In this document: positions 6,690 through 13,109 of the stretch, piece after piece
Position numbering within the stretch: position 1 is the stretch's first letter
Layout: each line of letters opens with the position of its first letter
Source: Agrococcus sp. HG114
GTDB lineage: Bacteria > Actinomycetota > Actinomycetes > Actinomycetales > Microbacteriaceae
DNA: 34,926 nucleotides
Direction of reading: 5' to 3'
Assembly (NCBI RefSeq): GCF_024723325.1
Contig: NZ_JANQCH010000010.1
Coordinates: forward strand, 1 to 34,926
Made by a program: the position numbers and the translations under genes
The notes under the pieces: model-generated
What the model was told of the DNA's origin: nothing
What the model saw: only the letters and a program-made list of their open reading frames with translations
Databases searched by the model: none

Positions 6690-7166
6690 TCAGCTCGCGA
6701 GCGCCACGGCGAGGCACGCGGCGGTCGCGGCGGAGAGCACCGCGCGCACGTGGTTCCAGCGCGACCAGCGCGCCTCGTCGAACGCGGCGCGCGCCTCGGC
6801 GGCATCGGTGCGGGCGGCGTCGCCGGCGGCGCGCAGCGCGTCGTTGCGCGGCACGTTGACGGTGCCCGTGATGGCGATGACGGCCAGCTGCAGCGCGCCG
6901 GCCGCGAGGATCCAGGCGAGCGCCGCGTCGCCGAGGTGGAGCAGCGCGGCCGCGATCGCGAGCGCGAGCGGGCCGAGGAAGACGCCGCCGAGGTAGAGCG
7001 GGTTCAGGATGGCTCCGTCCACCGCGGTGAAGGCCGCGACGAACGCGCGGTCGTCGACGCGCCGGAGCCCCGGCATGACGGCGTTCGAGAAGCTGAGGAA
7101 CACGCCGGCGCCGACACCGGCGGCGACCGTCGCGATGAGCAGCACGACCGTGCCCGCGGAGTCCAT
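6690..7166 (-). CDS. DUF1772 (anthrone oxygenase-like) membrane protein
   Basis: The 158-residue protein has four hydrophobic helices and the DUF1772 signature: an early GAGVFLSFSNAVMPGL and a late TGTVNVPRNDAL, followed by WSRWNHVRAVLS. The family includes fungal anthrone oxygenases, but most bacterial members have no assigned function. It is transcribed on its own on the minus strand from an ATG at 7164-7166. The 126-bp space upstream contains GGACCGGTCC (7228-7237), a perfect palindrome of unknown meaning. Confidence 0.82.
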   Translation of the reverse strand: MDSAGTVVLLIATVAAGVGAGVFLSFSNAVMPGLRRVDDRAFVAAFTAVDGAILNPLYLGGVFLGPLALAIAAALLHLGDAALAWILAAGALQLAVIAITGTVNVPRNDALRAAGDAARTDAAEARAAFDEARWSRWNHVRAVLSAATAACLAVALAS

Positions 7167-7252: not shown

Positions 7253-7298
7253 GGGCCGATCGCTCAGGCGTCGAGCGCTCCGGGCCGACCGCTCAGGC
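7253..7298. repeat. 17-bp direct repeat at the 3' end of the M14 gene
   Basis: GGGCCGATCGCTCAGGC (7253-7269) recurs as GGGCCGACCGCTCAGGC (7282-7298), one mismatch, 29 bp apart. The second copy contains the stop codon of the minus-strand M14 gene. It looks like a small local duplication of the gene's tail. Confidence 0.55.
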
Positions 7299-8249
7299 CG
7301 AGCCCTCGGGCGCGGCGATGTGGGCCACCGCGTCGCCCGCGTGGACGATCGGCGCGCGGGTCAGCCCGATGACGATGCCGTCGCGGTCGGCGCGCACGAT
7401 GCGCCCGCCCGTGCCGAAGGCGTCGGCGACGCGCCCGAGCCGCGCACCCGCGTCCACCCGGTCGCCGAGCTCGACCTCGAGGTGGAGGATGCCCGAGCCG
7501 CGCGCCCGCACCCAGCCGCTCGCGCGGCACTCGACCGGCTCCGCCTCCGGCTCCGGCTGCTCCTCGAGCATGCCGAGCGCGGCGAGCACGCGGAGCACGC
7601 CCGCGACGCCCGCGGCGACCGGCTGCTCCTCGAGCCGCAGCGCCTCGCCCGCCTCGTACAGCAGCGCGATCGAGCCCGCCTCCCGCGCCGCCTGGCGCAG
7701 CGAGCCGTCGCGGAGGCGCGCGTGCAGCATGACCGGCGCGCCGAACGCCGCCGCGAGCCGGCGCGTCTCGGGGTCGTCGAGGTCGGCGCGGACCTGCGGC
7801 AGGTTGTCGCGGCGGTCGGAGCCGGTGTGGAGGTCGATGCCCACGTCGCAGCGCGCGACGACCTCGGTCATCAGGAGGTGCGCGATGCGGCTCGCGAGCG
7901 AGCCGCGCGCGGCGCCGGGGAACGAGCGGTTGAGGTCGCGCCGGTCGGGCAGGTAGCGGTCGCCGGTCATGAAGCCGAGCACGTTGACGACCGGCACGGC
8001 CACGAGCGTGCCCCGCAGCGTCCTCGGCGACACCGCCGCGAGCACCCGGCGGATGACCTCGACGCCCACGACCTCGTCGCCGTGCACCGCCGCATCCAGC
8101 CACACCGCGGGGCCGGGCTCGCGGCCGTGCACGACGCGCACGGGCAGCGACACGTCGCCGCCCGTCACGAGGCGCGCGATCGGCAGGTCGACGCTCTTCG
8201 CCTGCCCTGCGCGCACGCGCACGGCGCCGATCGCGAACGACTCACGCAC
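7293..8249 (-). CDS. Succinylglutamate desuccinylase/aspartoacylase-type M14 metalloenzyme
   Basis: The 318-residue zinc hydrolase is of the AstE/AspA branch of the M14 carboxypeptidase fold. The zinc motif is AAVHGDEVVG (HxxE), the third ligand sits in GIDLHTGSD, and the likely catalytic Glu is in LLYEAGE. The last 80 residues form a biotinyl/lipoyl-like beta barrel (GWVRARGSGILHLEVELGDRV... IVHAGDAVAHIA), as in other AstE-like proteins. The GTG start (8247-8249) overlaps the end of the retropepsin-like gene by 8 bp, so the two are translationally coupled. With the divergent RimK ligase next door, the likely job is removing or trimming amino-acid or acyl tags; that role is inferred. It probably does not belong to the arginine AST pathway, as no other ast gene is here. 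Confidence 0.85.
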   Translation of the reverse strand: MRESFAIGAVRVRAGQAKSVDLPIARLVTGGDVSLPVRVVHGREPGPAVWLDAAVHGDEVVGVEVIRRVLAAVSPRTLRGTLVAVPVVNVLGFMTGDRYLPDRRDLNRSFPGAARGSLASRIAHLLMTEVVARCDVGIDLHTGSDRRDNLPQVRADLDDPETRRLAAAFGAPVMLHARLRDGSLRQAAREAGSIALLYEAGEALRLEEQPVAAGVAGVLRVLAALGMLEEQPEPEAEPVECRASGWVRARGSGILHLEVELGDRVDAGARLGRVADAFGTGGRIVRADRDGIVIGLTRAPIVHAGDAVAHIAAPEGSA

Positions 8250-8730
8250 CGGCGCGCCCCCGGTTGCGCAGCCGCACGGCGCGCGGGGGACGCCCGCCGA
8301 GGTAGGAGCGCGCGGCGTCGACGGCGAAGCCCTGGCGCAGGGCCTCGCGCCCGACGAGGAGCCGGAAGCCCATCTCGTCGCGGCGCGCGAGGGTCACCTC
8401 GGTGGTGACCGAGCGCCCCAGCAGCTCGATCGCCGTGCGGATCACGATCCGCTCCTGCGCGTGGCCGGTCGACGAGCGCACGAGCCGGCGGTCGTGCACG
8501 GGGTGCTCGACGAGCACGGCGTCGGCGTCGGAGCGCTGCCACGGGTGCACGCTGAACCGCACCCAGTCCCGACCGTCGCGCGTGAGCTCCTCGAGGTCGA
8601 ACGCATGCAGCGCGCTCGAGCGCGCGCCGGTGTCGAGCTTCGCCTTCACGTGCGGCACGCCCAGCCCGGGCATGCCGACCCACTCGCGCCATCCGGCGAG
8701 CGCCGGCCTGCCAGGATGGTCGTCTGCCAT
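8242..8730 (-). CDS. Retropepsin-like 'ATP-dependent zinc protease' (PF05618, RimB-like)
   Basis: The 162-residue protein carries the aspartyl-protease signature AKLDTGARSSALHA (D33-T34-G35) and the conserved tail GFRLLVGREALRQGFAVDAARSYL. This is the family annotated as putative ATP-dependent zinc protease, although the fold is retropepsin-like. Family members are frequent neighbours of rimK; in Pseudomonas the RimB protein of this family acts with RimK. I start at the ATG at 8728-8730. The frame runs further upstream but would cross the divergent rimK start 34 bp away. No good Shine-Dalgarno precedes it, so the message may be leaderless. It is the first gene of a two-gene operon with the M14 enzyme. 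Confidence 0.84.
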   Translation of the reverse strand: MADDHPGRPALAGWREWVGMPGLGVPHVKAKLDTGARSSALHAFDLEELTRDGRDWVRFSVHPWQRSDADAVLVEHPVHDRRLVRSSTGHAQERIVIRTAIELLGRSVTTEVTLARRDEMGFRLLVGREALRQGFAVDAARSYLGGRPPRAVRLRNRGRAGA

Positions 8731-8764
8731 GCGCCCATCCAACAGGAAGGCAGGTGCGCCACCC

Positions 8765-9955
8765 ATGAGGCTCGCCATCCTCTCGCGCGCGCCGCGCTCG
8801 TACAGCACCCGCCGGCTGCGGGCCGCGGCCGCCGACCGCGGGCACGACGTCAAGGTGCTCAACACCCTCCGGTTCGCGATCGACCTGTCGGGCGACGCGC
8901 CCGACCTGCAGTTCCGCGGCCGCCAGCTCACCGACTACGACGCGATCCTGCCGCGCATCGGCAACTCGATCACCTACTTCGGCACCGCCGTCGTGCGGCA
9001 GTTCGAGCAGATGGACGTGTACACGCCCAACACCGCCAACGGCATCGCCAACTCGCGCGACAAGCTCCGGGCGACCCAGATCCTCGCGCGCCACGACATC
9101 GGCATGCCGCCGACGACCTTCGTGCGCGACCGCGCCGACGTGATCCCCGCGATCGAGCGCGTCGGCGGCGCGCCGGTCGTGCTCAAGCTCCTCGAGGGCA
9201 CGCAGGGCATCGGGGTCATCCTCGCGCCGACCATCAAGGTCGCCGAGGCGATCATCGAGACGCTGCAGAGCACCCGCCAGCAGGTGCTCATCCAGCGCTT
9301 CGTCACCGAGAGCAAGGGCCGCGACATCCGCGCGCTCGTGGTCGGCGACCGCGTCGTCGCAGCGATGCGGCGCACCGCCCAGGGCGACGAGTTCCGCTCC
9401 AACGTGCACCGCGGCGGCAGCGTCGAGGCCGTCACCCTCGACGCCGACTCCGAGCGCGTCGCGGTGCGCGCCGCGCAGATCATGGGCCTCAAGGTCGCGG
9501 GGGTCGACATGCTCGAGGGCAACGACGGGCCGCTCGTGATGGAGGTGAACTCGTCCCCCGGGCTCGAGGGCATCGAGACGGCCACGAGGCTCGACGTCGC
9601 CGGCGCGATCATCGACTACATCGACGACCAGGTCGCGTTCCCGCAGATCGACGTGCGCGAGCGGCTGAGCGTCTCGACCGGCTACGGCGTGGCGGAGCTC
9701 GTCGTGCACGGCGACGCCGACCTCGTCGGCAAGTCGCTGAGCGAGTCGGGGCTGCGGGAGCGCGACATCACCGTCCTCACCCTCCACCGCGGCACCACGG
9801 TCATCCCCAACCCGAAAGGACGCGAGACGCTGCACGCCGAGGACCGGCTGCTGTGCTTCGGCCGGCTCGAGGAGATGCGCTCCATGATCCCCGCGCGGCC
9901 CAAGCGCCGAGCGCGCGTCAAGAGGCTGCCGAAGGAGCCGCTGCCCGAGGAGTGA
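8765..9955 (+). CDS. rimK: RimK-type ATP-grasp glutamate ligase with C-terminal RCK_C domain
   Basis: The first 300 of 396 residues are a normal RimK: MRLAILSRAPRSYSTRRL, TPNTANGIANSRDK, the ATP-binding VVLKLLEGTQGIGVIL, and the Mg-binding MEVNSSPGLEG near residue 260. RimK ligates glutamate to protein or peptide carboxyl ends using ATP. E. coli RimK ends near residue 300; here a further domain (about 305-375) reads GYGVAELVVHGDADLVGKSL, then RERDITVLTLHRG and EDRLLCFGRLEEM. That is the pattern of TrkA-C/RCK_C, a small ligand-binding regulatory domain known from K+ channels and transporters. A basic tail PKRRARVKRLPKE follows. An AGGAAGGCAGG sequence at 8744-8754 serves as ribosome site. The gene is divergent from the protease/M14 pair. 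Confidence 0.86.
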   Translation: MRLAILSRAPRSYSTRRLRAAAADRGHDVKVLNTLRFAIDLSGDAPDLQFRGRQLTDYDAILPRIGNSITYFGTAVVRQFEQMDVYTPNTANGIANSRDKLRATQILARHDIGMPPTTFVRDRADVIPAIERVGGAPVVLKLLEGTQGIGVILAPTIKVAEAIIETLQSTRQQVLIQRFVTESKGRDIRALVVGDRVVAAMRRTAQGDEFRSNVHRGGSVEAVTLDADSERVAVRAAQIMGLKVAGVDMLEGNDGPLVMEVNSSPGLEGIETATRLDVAGAIIDYIDDQVAFPQIDVRERLSVSTGYGVAELVVHGDADLVGKSLSESGLRERDITVLTLHRGTTVIPNPKGRETLHAEDRLLCFGRLEEMRSMIPARPKRRARVKRLPKEPLPEE

Positions 9956-10021: not shown

Positions 10022-11422
10022 TCAGCGCGTCGCGCGCGACTCGACGGCGGTGGGGTCGGGGTCGCCCTGCTTCCAGGTGCCGAACTGGCCCGAGTGCTCG
10101 AACTCGATCGACAGCGGCACGTCGTTGCGCTGCTTGAGCAGCAGCGTGCCGATGACCGAGATCGCGATCGTCCCGAGCAGGTACACGACGATCGACCACG
10201 TCGAGCCGGTCGCCTGCAGCAGCGCCTGGGCGATCGTGGGCGCGAAGGCGCCGCCGATGACCGCGCCGATCGCGTAGGCGATCGAGACGCCCGAGTAGCG
10301 CACCGAGGCCGGGAACGACTCGGCGTACCAGGCCGCCTGCGCCCCGTAGGTGAGGCCGAGGCCGACGCCGAGCAGCGTCGTCGCGATCGCGACGCCCGCG
10401 ACGCCGGTCGCGGTCAGCGCGAACAGCGGCAGGACGCCCGCGGCGAGCACGACCCAGCCGATGAGGTAGAGCTTCTTGCGTCCGATGCGGTCGGAGGCCC
10501 AACCGGCGACGAAGGTGAACACGAGCCACGAGACCGCGCCCGCGAGGTTCGCGAGCTGCACGCCCACCGGGTCGAAGCCGTAGCCGCCCGCGTCGACGGG
10601 CCGCGAGGCGAGCCCCTGGATGTAGCCGCCGGTCGTCATGTAGCCGACCGCGTTGTTGCCCATGAAGACCATCGCGCAGAAGAGCACGATCAGGCCGTAC
10701 TTGCGGAACACCTGGATGATCGGCGCCGACTCCTGCTGCGCGGTCTGCTTGATCTCCTCGAAGACCGGCGACTCCTCGACCGCGCGGCGGACGACGTAGC
10801 CGACGATGACGAGCAGGATCGAGATGAAGAACGGGATGCGCCAGCCGACCTCGAGGAACGCGTCACCGGGGAAGAGCGCGCGCACGAGCGCGAGGATGCC
10901 GGTCGCGAGCAGCATGCCGAGCGGCACGCCCGACTGCACGAACGAGCCGTACAGGCCGCGGCGGCCCTTCGGCGCGTGCTCGATGGCCATGAGCACGGCG
11001 CCGCCCCACTCGCCGCCGGCCGAGAGGCCCTGCAGGACGCGGAGGAGCATGAGCAGGATCGGCGCGAGGATCCCGATCTGCTCGTAGGTCGGGAGTGCGC
11101 CGACGAGCGTCGTGGCCGCGCCCATGAGGAGGAGCGTGAGCACGAGCATCGGGCGACGCCCGAGCTTGTCGCCGAAGTGGCCCGCGAGGAACGCGCCGAG
11201 CGGGCGGAACAGGAACGAGATGCCGATCGTCACGAGCGCGATGATCTGGCCGAGGCCCGGGCCCGCCGGCTCGAAGAAGAGCTGCGCGAAGACCAGGTTC
11301 GCCATGAAGGCGTAGATGAAGAAGTCGTACCACTCGATCGTGGTGCCGACGACGACCGCGGCGAGCACGCGGTTGCGCTCGCTCTTCGAGGTCGCGAGGT
11401 GAGGCGTCGTGCTGTGAGACAC
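10022..11422 (-). CDS. MHS-family MFS transporter, likely aromatic acid uptake
   Basis: The 466-residue, 12-helix MFS protein is of the metabolite:H+ symporter group (ShiA/ProP/KgtP-like). The family hallmark TTIEWYDFFIYAF lies at residues 28-40, the loop 2-3 motif GHFGDKLGRRP at 81-91, and GLSAGGEWGGA follows. The start is the GTG at 11420-11422, fixed by an AAAGGAG (11428-11434) 5 nt upstream; the longer open frame has no such support. It is divergent from the homoprotocatechuate operon, and both promoters carry TATACGAT boxes. It therefore most likely imports the pathway substrate (a hydroxyphenylacetate or related acid) and is controlled by the same GntR protein; this is inferred from context. 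Confidence 0.88.
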   Translation of the reverse strand: MSHSTTPHLATSKSERNRVLAAVVVGTTIEWYDFFIYAFMANLVFAQLFFEPAGPGLGQIIALVTIGISFLFRPLGAFLAGHFGDKLGRRPMLVLTLLLMGAATTLVGALPTYEQIGILAPILLMLLRVLQGLSAGGEWGGAVLMAIEHAPKGRRGLYGSFVQSGVPLGMLLATGILALVRALFPGDAFLEVGWRIPFFISILLVIVGYVVRRAVEESPVFEEIKQTAQQESAPIIQVFRKYGLIVLFCAMVFMGNNAVGYMTTGGYIQGLASRPVDAGGYGFDPVGVQLANLAGAVSWLVFTFVAGWASDRIGRKKLYLIGWVVLAAGVLPLFALTATGVAGVAIATTLLGVGLGLTYGAQAAWYAESFPASVRYSGVSIAYAIGAVIGGAFAPTIAQALLQATGSTWSIVVYLLGTIAISVIGTLLLKQRNDVPLSIEFEHSGQFGTWKQGDPDPTAVESRATR

Positions 11423-11478
11423 GCTGACTCCTTTGTCAGATGGGGGCTCCGAGGGCTCGGTGCCGAGGGACTGGATGG

Positions 11479-11490
11479 AAGATATACGAT
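11479..11490. promoter_or_regulatory. GntR operator box, transporter side
   Basis: AAGATATACGAT matches 9 of 12 positions of the perfect palindrome at 11576-11587, including eight contiguous bases (TATACGAT). Its centre is 97 bp from the other. It overlaps a predicted minus-strand -10. Confidence 0.6.
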
Positions 11491-11507
11491 TTCGTGCACG
11501 ACGGCAA
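11481..11507 (-). promoter_or_regulatory. Predicted promoter of the MHS transporter
   Basis: On the minus strand TTGCCG (11502-11507) is 15 bp from TATATC (11481-11486). The spacing is slightly short. The -10 lies within the operator box, which fits repression. Confidence 0.4.
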
Positions 11508-11557
11508 GCACTTCCGACGAGCGCTCGTCGGCGCCGTGCCGGCCCGATCTCCAAGCC

Positions 11558-11585
11558 TTGCGGAACGAATCTGGAATCGTATACG
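11558..11585 (+). promoter_or_regulatory. Predicted promoter of the homoprotocatechuate operon
   Basis: TTGCGG (11558-11563), a 16-bp spacer and TATACG (11580-11585) precede the ATG at 11595 by 9 bp. Transcription would begin within a few bases of the start codon, so the mRNA is probably leaderless. The operator palindrome covers the -10. Confidence 0.5.
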
Positions 11586-11587
11586 AT
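11576..11587. promoter_or_regulatory. Perfect 12-bp GntR/FCD operator ATCGTATACGAT
   Basis: ATCGTATACGAT is its own reverse complement. It contains GTA-TAC, matching the GTM-N(0-1)-KAC core described for FadR-subfamily GntR regulators, and the second gene of the operon encodes such a protein. It overlaps the predicted -10 of the operon. Confidence 0.7.
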
Positions 11588-11594
11588 GCCGCGC

Positions 11595-13109
11595 ATGCAT
11601 GCATCGACGCAGCCCGCCACCGACGCCGTCCCCGCCGCTGCCGCGGCCTGGAGCCTGCTCGGCGCCCGGCCCAACAAGGTCTTCGCGATGCACATCGGCT
11701 ACCGCGCCCGCGCCGCCCAGAAGGGCCGCACGCCCGAGGCGCCCGGCTACTTCATGAAGCCCGCGACCTCGCTCTCGACCGGCGGCGAGGTCGTCGTGCC
11801 GGCCGGCACCGAGATCTTCGGCTTCGAGGGCGAGATCGCGATCGTCATCGGCTCCCACGCGCGCGCCGTGGGCGAGGCGGATGCGTGGGCTCACGTCGCG
11901 TCGATCACGGCGGCGAACGACCTGGGCGTCTTCGACCTCCGATGGGTCGACAAGGGCTCGAACATCCGCTCGAAGGGCGGCGACGGCATGACGCCGATCG
12001 GGCCCGCGCTCCTCGACGCCCGCCGCCTCGACCCGCGCGCGATCGAGGTGCGCACCTGGCTCGACGGCGAGCTCGTGCAGCACGACTCCACGTCGACGCT
12101 CATCTTCTCGCTGCCGCAGATCGTGAGCGATCTCTCGCAGCTCGTCACGCTCGAGCCGGGCGACGTCATCCTCACCGGCACCCCCGCGGACGCATCGACC
12201 TTCTCCCCCGGGCAGACCGTCGAGGTCGAGGTGTCGGCGATGACGATCGACGGCGAGCGGGTCTCGACGGGGCGGCTCGCCTCCACGGTGCGGGTCGGCG
12301 AGCAGGTGCTCCCGCCGTACTCCGCGCAGCCGAAGCCGACGCCCGAGCAGTGGGCCGACGCGTCCGGACGGCCGATCGACGAGTTCCAGGCGCCCGCCGA
12401 GCCCGTGCTCGACGACGAGCTGCGCGGGCAGCTCTCCCGCGTCGCGCTCGCGACGCTCTCGTCGGCCCTCCGCAAGCGCGGGCTGAACAACGTCTCGATC
12501 GACGGCCTGCGCTCGACCCAGCCCGGCAAGCGGCTCGTCGGCGTCGCGCGCACGCTGCGGTACGTGCCCAACCGCGAGGACCTCTTCGCGAGCCACGGCG
12601 GCGGCTACAACGCCCAGAAGCGCCTGTTCGACTCGCTCCGGCCGGGCGAGGTCGTCGTGATCGAGGCGCGCGGCGACAACCGCTCGGGCACGCTCGGCGA
12701 CATCCTCGCTCTCCGAGCGCGCCACCTCGGCGCGGCGGGCATCGTCACGGACGGCGGCGTGCGCGACCTCGACGTCGTGACCGAGATCGGCGTGCCGACC
12801 TACCACGCGGGTGGCCACCCCGCGGTGCTCGGCCGGCTCCACGTGCCGTGGTCCTTCGACGAGACGATCGCGTGCGGCGGCGCGACCGTGCAGCCCGGCG
12901 ACATCATCGTCGGCGACGGCGACGGCGTGCTCGTGATCCCGCCCGCGCTCGTGCGCGAGCTCGTCGAGGAGTGCCTCCGCACCGAGGCGGAGGAGGAGTG
13001 GATCGCCCGGCAGGTCGAGGCCGGGCACCCGGTCGACGGGCTCTTCCCGATGGACGCCGAGTGGCGCGCGCGATTCGAGGCCGAGACCACCGGCCGGGAG
13101 GGGTCGTGA
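11595..13109 (+). CDS. hpaG: FAH-family decarboxylase/isomerase fused to an RraA-like aldolase domain (HpaG-type)
   Basis: The 504-residue protein joins two domains. Residues about 15-240 are a fumarylacetoacetate hydrolase-family domain: metal ligands E78 and E80 (FGFEGEIA) and D109 (AANDLG), then KGSNIRSKGGDGMTPIGP and GDVILTGTPAD, close to HpaG. Residues about 280-480 are an RraA/HMG-aldolase-like domain with GVARTLRYVPNREDL and TDGGVRD (R390-D391), the RD pair needed for aldolase or decarboxylase activity in that family. Ordinary HpaG has two FAH repeats that decarboxylate OPET and isomerise the product; here the second half is RraA-like. It heads the operon. I use the ATG at 11595 (leaderless); ATG 11586 lies inside the operator. 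It acts in the lower homoprotocatechuate pathway; the division of steps between domains is unproven. Confidence 0.82.
   Translation: MHASTQPATDAVPAAAAAWSLLGARPNKVFAMHIGYRARAAQKGRTPEAPGYFMKPATSLSTGGEVVVPAGTEIFGFEGEIAIVIGSHARAVGEADAWAHVASITAANDLGVFDLRWVDKGSNIRSKGGDGMTPIGPALLDARRLDPRAIEVRTWLDGELVQHDSTSTLIFSLPQIVSDLSQLVTLEPGDVILTGTPADASTFSPGQTVEVEVSAMTIDGERVSTGRLASTVRVGEQVLPPYSAQPKPTPEQWADASGRPIDEFQAPAEPVLDDELRGQLSRVALATLSSALRKRGLNNVSIDGLRSTQPGKRLVGVARTLRYVPNREDLFASHGGGYNAQKRLFDSLRPGEVVVIEARGDNRSGTLGDILALRARHLGAAGIVTDGGVRDLDVVTEIGVPTYHAGGHPAVLGRLHVPWSFDETIACGGATVQPGDIIVGDGDGVLVIPPALVRELVEECLRTEAEEEWIARQVEAGHPVDGLFPMDAEWRARFEAETTGREGS

Follow-up and report, generated by a model that had tools for sequence, protein, structure and literature searches.

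RimK fused to an RCK_C domain, RimB and an M14-type zinc hydrolase: a candidate cycle of poly-alpha-glutamate synthesis and breakdown

Introduction

Which enzyme would deal with the short glutamate chains that a RimK ligase and a RimB protease may leave behind? The question is raised by a three-gene locus of Agrococcus sp. HG114 (Microbacteriaceae, Actinomycetota), in which a gene for a RimK-type glutamate ligase with an additional C-terminal RCK_C domain points away from rimB, the gene for a retropepsin-like protease, which in turn overlaps a gene for an M14-type zinc hydrolase on its own strand. The locus lies in a window of 34,926 nucleotides (contig NZ_JANQCH010000010.1, positions 1 to 34,926), which is the whole stretch of DNA analysed here. 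RimK and RimB have been studied as a switch that modifies the ribosome. The original prediction had read the trio as a reversible module that adds a tag, removes it and processes its target; a linked module of the three enzymes is supported, and adding, removing and processing is the most economical reading of it.

On balance, we lean towards a poly-alpha-glutamate cycle in which RimK builds the polymer, RimB cuts it and the M14-type hydrolase finishes the fragments. The chemistry of the first two enzymes is carried over from the literature on Pseudomonas and E. coli, and we infer the substrate of the third, and with it the cycle as a whole:

(i) RimK-RCK_C, using ATP, would extend a protein C-terminus with glutamates and/or make free poly-alpha-L-glutamate.

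(ii) RimB, a dimeric retropepsin-like endopeptidase, would cleave glutamate runs that are about five residues long or longer.

(iii) The M14/AstE-type hydrolase would take the leftovers of RimB, either as short alpha-glutamyl peptides or as a stub trimmed to free glutamate.

According to excerpts of PMC11957791, Pseudomonas RimB stimulates RimK to produce poly-alpha-glutamate and requires about 5-6 contiguous Glu for cleavage. Because of this requirement short glutamyl chains would persist, and the rimB-coupled hydrolase is the natural candidate to finish them.

Identity and layout of the three genes

The identities of the three genes and their intact catalytic motifs are established here, together with their linkage and co-occurrence. 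RimK matches PF18030, PF08443 (198.5 bits) and PF02080 (TrkA_C; 35 bits, cut-off 27), all above their cut-offs, as well as TIGR00768, also above cut-off; with NF007764 (S6--L-glutamate ligase) it reaches 328 bits, where the cut-off is 331, the open reading frame having been scored with its upstream extension. Its profile matched the solved chains 7qyr, 7qys, 5zct and 4iwx, which we take to be RimK of Pseudomonas and E. coli; the matched region lies within residues 1-289, and the alignments with 7qyr and 4iwx span residues 1-288. RimB matches PF05618 with 113.5 bits (cut-off 27) and carries a DTG motif at D33, with D33 and G35 kept in 93 of 93 aligned rows and T34 in 91 (the rows comprise 91 distinct ones, the window being entered three times). 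Of the four retropepsin models listed, the RimB equivalog NF052261 scores best, at 110.1 bits, which is below its cut-off of 200; we therefore call the protein RimB-type and not an equivalog. The hydrolase matches PF24827 with 141.5 bits (cut-off 25) and has the AstE/AspA (M14-type) fold domain with the zinc ligands and the catalytic Glu present; its closest named relative among the matches listed is from Agrococcus pavilionensis, whose best segment is 86% identical.

All three proteins are conserved in other genomes, which rules out chance open reading frames. The frames of rimK and rimB extend further upstream, and the starts given here were chosen for their best agreement with relatives; with these, the three genes, their divergent layout, the 34-bp gap between starts and the 8-bp overlap were all confirmed (Table 1). 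Through this overlap, rimB and the hydrolase gene are likely to be translationally coupled. The spacer between rimB and rimK has a median of 26 bp and a range of 18-143 bp across 51 divergent rows, in which the window locus counts three times. Many of these spacers share a CATC..CAGG core that we read as back-to-back ribosome sites, an arrangement that would place the promoters inside the opposite gene and make the divergent transcripts overlap.

Linkage of the hydrolase to RimB and RimK

The original prediction expected the trio to be kept together in relatives, and this expectation failed inside the family and held outside it. Among 150 family genomes, full-length RimK-RCK_C was found in 45, the window's included, at 78-100% identity (four more gave weak partial matches only). 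RimB was found in the same 45, with one weak partial match elsewhere (G069), and in all 45 the two genes lie side by side in divergent orientation, their matches 29-119 bp apart. A close hydrolase homolog occurs in two of the 150, the window's own genome and another of the same genus (G049), while distant paralogs of 32-35% identity occur in four others; a further genus member (G119) gave no RimK, RimB or hydrolase match. With two of 45 RimK-RCK_C genomes having a close homolog, the hydrolase was rejected as a family-wide partner.

Across the phylum, 396 genomes were surveyed with strong matches defined by E < 1e-50 for RimK and E < 1e-70 for the hydrolase; these searches score few first-look candidates per genome, so that absences are less sure than presences. 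Strong RimK was found in 37 genomes, being fused to RCK_C in 22 (one, G445, on a cut contig), RimB in 35 and a strong hydrolase homolog in 27. Every one of the 27 also has RimB and RimK, and RimB lies on the same strand within 2 kb of the hydrolase in 25, at 150 bp or less in 19 of those. RimB accompanies the RCK_C-fused RimK in 22/22 genomes and the hydrolase does so in 17/22. The confinement of the hydrolase to RimB genomes has a hypergeometric probability of 5e-35, a value that is overstated since genomes are treated as independent.

A scan of genome contigs with the hydrolase alignment confirmed at least 581 relatives, of which the best 80 were kept; these are the top matches to an Actinomycetota-based query and not an even sample. 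By record title they belong to Actinomycetota, Cyanobacteria, Gamma- and Alphaproteobacteria, Planctomycetota, Gemmatimonadota, Chloroflexi and others. RimB was found at 56 of the 80 loci within a distance of about 5 kb (or as far as the contig reaches), RimK at 63, both at 55 and either at 64. The commonest gene orders are rimB-rimK-hydrolase (25 loci) and the window's own, in which an RCK_C-fused rimK diverges from rimB followed by the hydrolase (20 loci). Of the 24 pairs in which rimB and the hydrolase gene are directly adjacent on the same strand, 22 overlap or abut, with starts chosen by script. The M14 partner, which had been thought to make the locus distinctive, is thus no peculiarity of the window, and we rejected that view: rim-linked homologs are widespread across many phyla.

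As a control, 13 of 24 weaker hydrolase places from two surveys were examined, at ten stretches, one of them cut by a contig end, and neither RimB nor RimK was found within about 5 kb of these paralogs. Eleven of the 13 are in genomes without any RimB match, which is joint absence and not broken linkage. The real linkage test within this control comes from the two paralogs of a single genome (G326), whose strong homolog does adjoin rimK and rimB.

On a RimK tree of 71 rows, the window's clade groups with Nocardioides, Smaragdicoccus and two family genomes (G053 and G123). A separate 23-row family clade contains no member with a hydrolase match in the family and phylum searches. The label "hydrolase beside rimK" requires six changes on the tree, which, with some forks weak (86/34 for the 23-row clade), does no more than suggest separate acquisition and loss of the hydrolase; the label covers the fetched neighbourhood alone, and some unlabelled rows have a hydrolase elsewhere. 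In several genomes (G224, G472, G516 and others) rimB and the hydrolase gene stand together as a pair while rimK is on a different contig, so that the link between these two may be tighter than the link to rimK.

Weighing the cycle against other readings

Several observations weigh against a poly-alpha-glutamate cycle served by all three enzymes:

(i) The hydrolase is dispensable for the RimB-RimK pair, being absent from 43 of the 45 family genomes that have the pair and from 8 of the 35 RimB genomes of the phylum survey, and in two phylum genomes (G311 and G405) the hydrolase and RimB are not neighbours.

(ii) Of the best 80 loci, 16 have neither RimK nor RimB nearby. Fourteen of their genomes could be searched, and a PF05618 gene lies elsewhere in 12 and is absent from two (17 genomes were tested in all, 14 with a positive result); PF05618 covers RloA-type proteases too.

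(iii) Among solved relatives of the hydrolase, the nearest whose substrate is named is the N-acetyl-amino-acid deacetylase DoeB, and the activity on glutamyl peptides is putative.

(iv) The residues R147, N149 and R154, which are specific to the hydrolase clade, are kept also in the nine aligned members without rim neighbours.

The first of these points would suit a simpler account, in which RimK-RCK_C and RimB are a plain Pseudomonas-type switch that modifies ribosomal protein S6, with the hydrolase as an incidental neighbour. The S6 of the window's host does end in Glu. Thirty chosen genomes were searched for S6, and tails were parsed for 19 with RimK-RCK_C and 10 without RimK (a further RimK-RCK_C genome, G246, was left out): a terminal Glu occurs in 4/19 of the former and 4/10 of the latter, and the tails vary widely within the RimK-RCK_C clade. 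S6, which had seemed the evident target, was accordingly rejected as a conserved one, the terminal Glu showing no association with RimK-RCK_C. As the linkage also recurs in several phyla with genes overlapping or abutting, we regard an incidental neighbour as very improbable.

A second account makes the hydrolase an amino-acid deacylase of the AstE, AspA or DoeB type that provides RimK with glutamate or a related amino acid, which would be a metabolic link and not tag removal. The hydrolase shares the fold and the zinc and catalytic residues of these enzymes, its closest NCBIfam model is DoeB TIGR02994, and among solved relatives 3cdx and DoeB 6twl come closest to it. However, its score of 102.2 bits is far under the DoeB cut-off of 402.7, it has the clade-specific R147, N149 and R154, and it is linked to rimB and rimK across phyla, as none of the 13 weaker paralogs examined is. 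These differences from DoeB, AstE and AspA make a deacylase quite unlikely in our estimate. The pair R103/R104 was dropped from the clade-specific residues, since its placement against 3cdx and DoeB could shift by one residue; R185 occurs in one and R205 in two of the 13 paralogs.

The hydrolase might also be an eraser that removes the last protein-linked glutamates and restores an unmodified C-terminus, as CCP carboxypeptidases do for tubulin. The eukaryotic TTLL/CCP system is alike in that it joins an ATP-grasp writer, TTLL, to an M14-fold eraser of glutamate chains. On the other hand, the nearest whole-chain fold matches of the hydrolase include DoeB, a small-molecule deacetylase, and CphZ, a dipeptide hydrolase, and no protein emerged as a conserved target, the tails of S6 differing as widely as they do in the clade; we consider a protein eraser unlikely.

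The poly-alpha-glutamate cycle has its nearest known logic in cyanophycin turnover by CphA, CphB and CphZ, with the difference that CphB is a peptidase of another kind than RimB. Excerpts of PMC12661447 describe CphB as releasing beta-Asp-Arg, which CphZ splits, and CphZ and the hydrolase share a fold; the cyanophycin polymer is made of Asp-Arg, so that the substrate would differ, and the hydrolase and CphZ are just 16-17% identical. A widely linked third enzyme of this kind makes the fate of short glutamate chains directly testable, and it suggests that polymer turnover may be the ancestral function, with S6 as one outlet.

The RCK_C domain and its ligand

The original prediction noted an extra domain on RimK, and the PF02080 match bears this out. 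The fusion marks a separate RimK clade and gives it a probable ligand input. RCK_C is a known receptor domain for c-di-AMP, and that of RimK distantly resembles the RCK_C domains of KtrA, KtrC and KhtT (best E 8.5e-4). It is well kept, if not to the degree of the ATP-grasp domain (mean consensus 0.79 versus 0.88 in 22 rows). Among the best 80 loci, 28 bear an RCK_C domain, 26 labelled Actinomycetota and two Pseudomonadota, as counted with a query that is itself from Actinomycetota. One of the loci (L155, 5001-9268), on a contig labelled Pseudomonadales, combines the hydrolase, rimB and an RCK_C-fused rimK that sits on a long branch of the RimK tree; judging from this locus, the fusion may extend beyond Actinomycetota.

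Is c-di-AMP the ligand here? The DAC domain PF02457 gave no match in the window's own genome or in 19 other family genomes tested, and the family may be without c-di-AMP altogether; outside the family, the domain is present in all ten RimK-RCK_C genomes of Actinomycetota tested. The c-di-AMP contact residues of KtrA include R169 and N175 (excerpts of PMC7288161). The equivalent of R169, R331, is Arg in the window but overall in just 34 of 71 RimK rows; at T336, the equivalent of N175, 62 of the 71 have Thr or Ser, with Asn outside the five commonest residues of that position (the rows comprise 69 distinct ones, and the correspondence to KtrA is read from a distant-similarity alignment). With no DAC domain in 20 family genomes and neither position conserved, we rejected c-di-AMP as the RCK_C ligand in this host, where it is unlikely; the rejection does not extend to hosts outside the family.

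A broader and more tentative proposal, which we hold possible but doubtful, is that many phyla share a poly-alpha-glutamate cycle comparable to that of cyanophycin, with RimK as polymerase, RimB as depolymerase and the M14-type glutamyl-peptide hydrolase returning glutamate, and that in Actinomycetota the polymerase gained its RCK_C domain, which would let some ionic or osmotic signal, and not c-di-AMP, gate how much glutamate, the counter-ion of K+, is stored as polymer.

Frames resembling CorA-type Mg2+ transporters occur near the hydrolase cluster at 8 of the 80 loci and frames resembling MscS-type channels at 5 (L165 2433-3581, L162 2480-3382 and similar), with one member of each named by Pfam. 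Such neighbours hint, if weakly, at an osmotic or ionic role.

Relation to described rim and rlo systems

The locus resembles the RimABK and RimB-RimK systems of Pseudomonas in having a RimK glutamate ligase with a RimB retropepsin-like protease encoded alongside it (excerpts of PMC11957791, PMC7343187 and PMC10092738). It differs in the RCK_C domain of RimK, the divergent orientation of rimB and the M14-type hydrolase after rimB, and also in its flanking genes, which are a PF08592 gene and an MFS gene and not rimA; among the flanking genes checked, no rimA phosphodiesterase gene was seen beside rimB or rimK, the rest of the genome not having been searched for one. The rlo operon of Pseudomonas aeruginosa likewise joins a retropepsin-like protease and an ATP-grasp protein in one operon, but its RloA proteases have signal peptides and its RloB is an inactive transglutaminase-like membrane protein (excerpts of PMC12239564).

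RimK and RimB are known, whereas the M14-type partner and the RCK_C fusion were not met in the literature searched: in mostly non-subscription literature, searched by listing with supplements excluded, no paper was found on an M14/AstE gene beside rimK or rimB or on TrkA_C on RimK. Term searches of the main text of PMC11957791, PMC7343187, PMC10092738 and PMC12239564 gave no match for M14, desuccinylase, aspartoacylase or carboxypeptidase, each where asked, and TrkA or RCK had no match in the main text of the rim papers so searched, PMC11957791 included.

Feature coordinates and other neighbours

Table 1. Features of the locus and its flanks, in window positions.
Feature	Position	Strand	Size or basis
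rimK-RCK_C, ATP-grasp alpha-L-glutamate ligase with C-terminal TrkA_C/RCK_C	8765..9955	+	396 aa
RCK_C (TrkA_C) domain of RimK, residues 309-372	9689..9880	+	PF02080
rimB, retropepsin-like aspartic endopeptidase	8242..8730	-	162 aa, PF05618
AstE/AspA-fold M14-type zinc hydrolase, proposed glutamyl-oligopeptide hydrolase	7293..8249	-	318 aa, PF24827
8-bp overlap of rimB end and hydrolase gene start	8242..8249	-	coordinates
Divergent spacer of 34 bp from rimB start to rimK start, ribosome-site-like core inside	8731..8764	.	coordinates
PF08592 gene, flanking neighbour on hydrolase side	6690-7166		Pfam
MFS gene, flanking neighbour on rimK side	10022-11695		Pfam

Other recurrent neighbours at the 80 loci are, judged by position, mostly frames opposite to or overlapping the rim genes, and the remainder are weak. 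Elsewhere in the window, PF01557 (fumarylacetoacetate hydrolase) and PF03737 (RraA-like) are fused in one frame (11433-13109, + strand).
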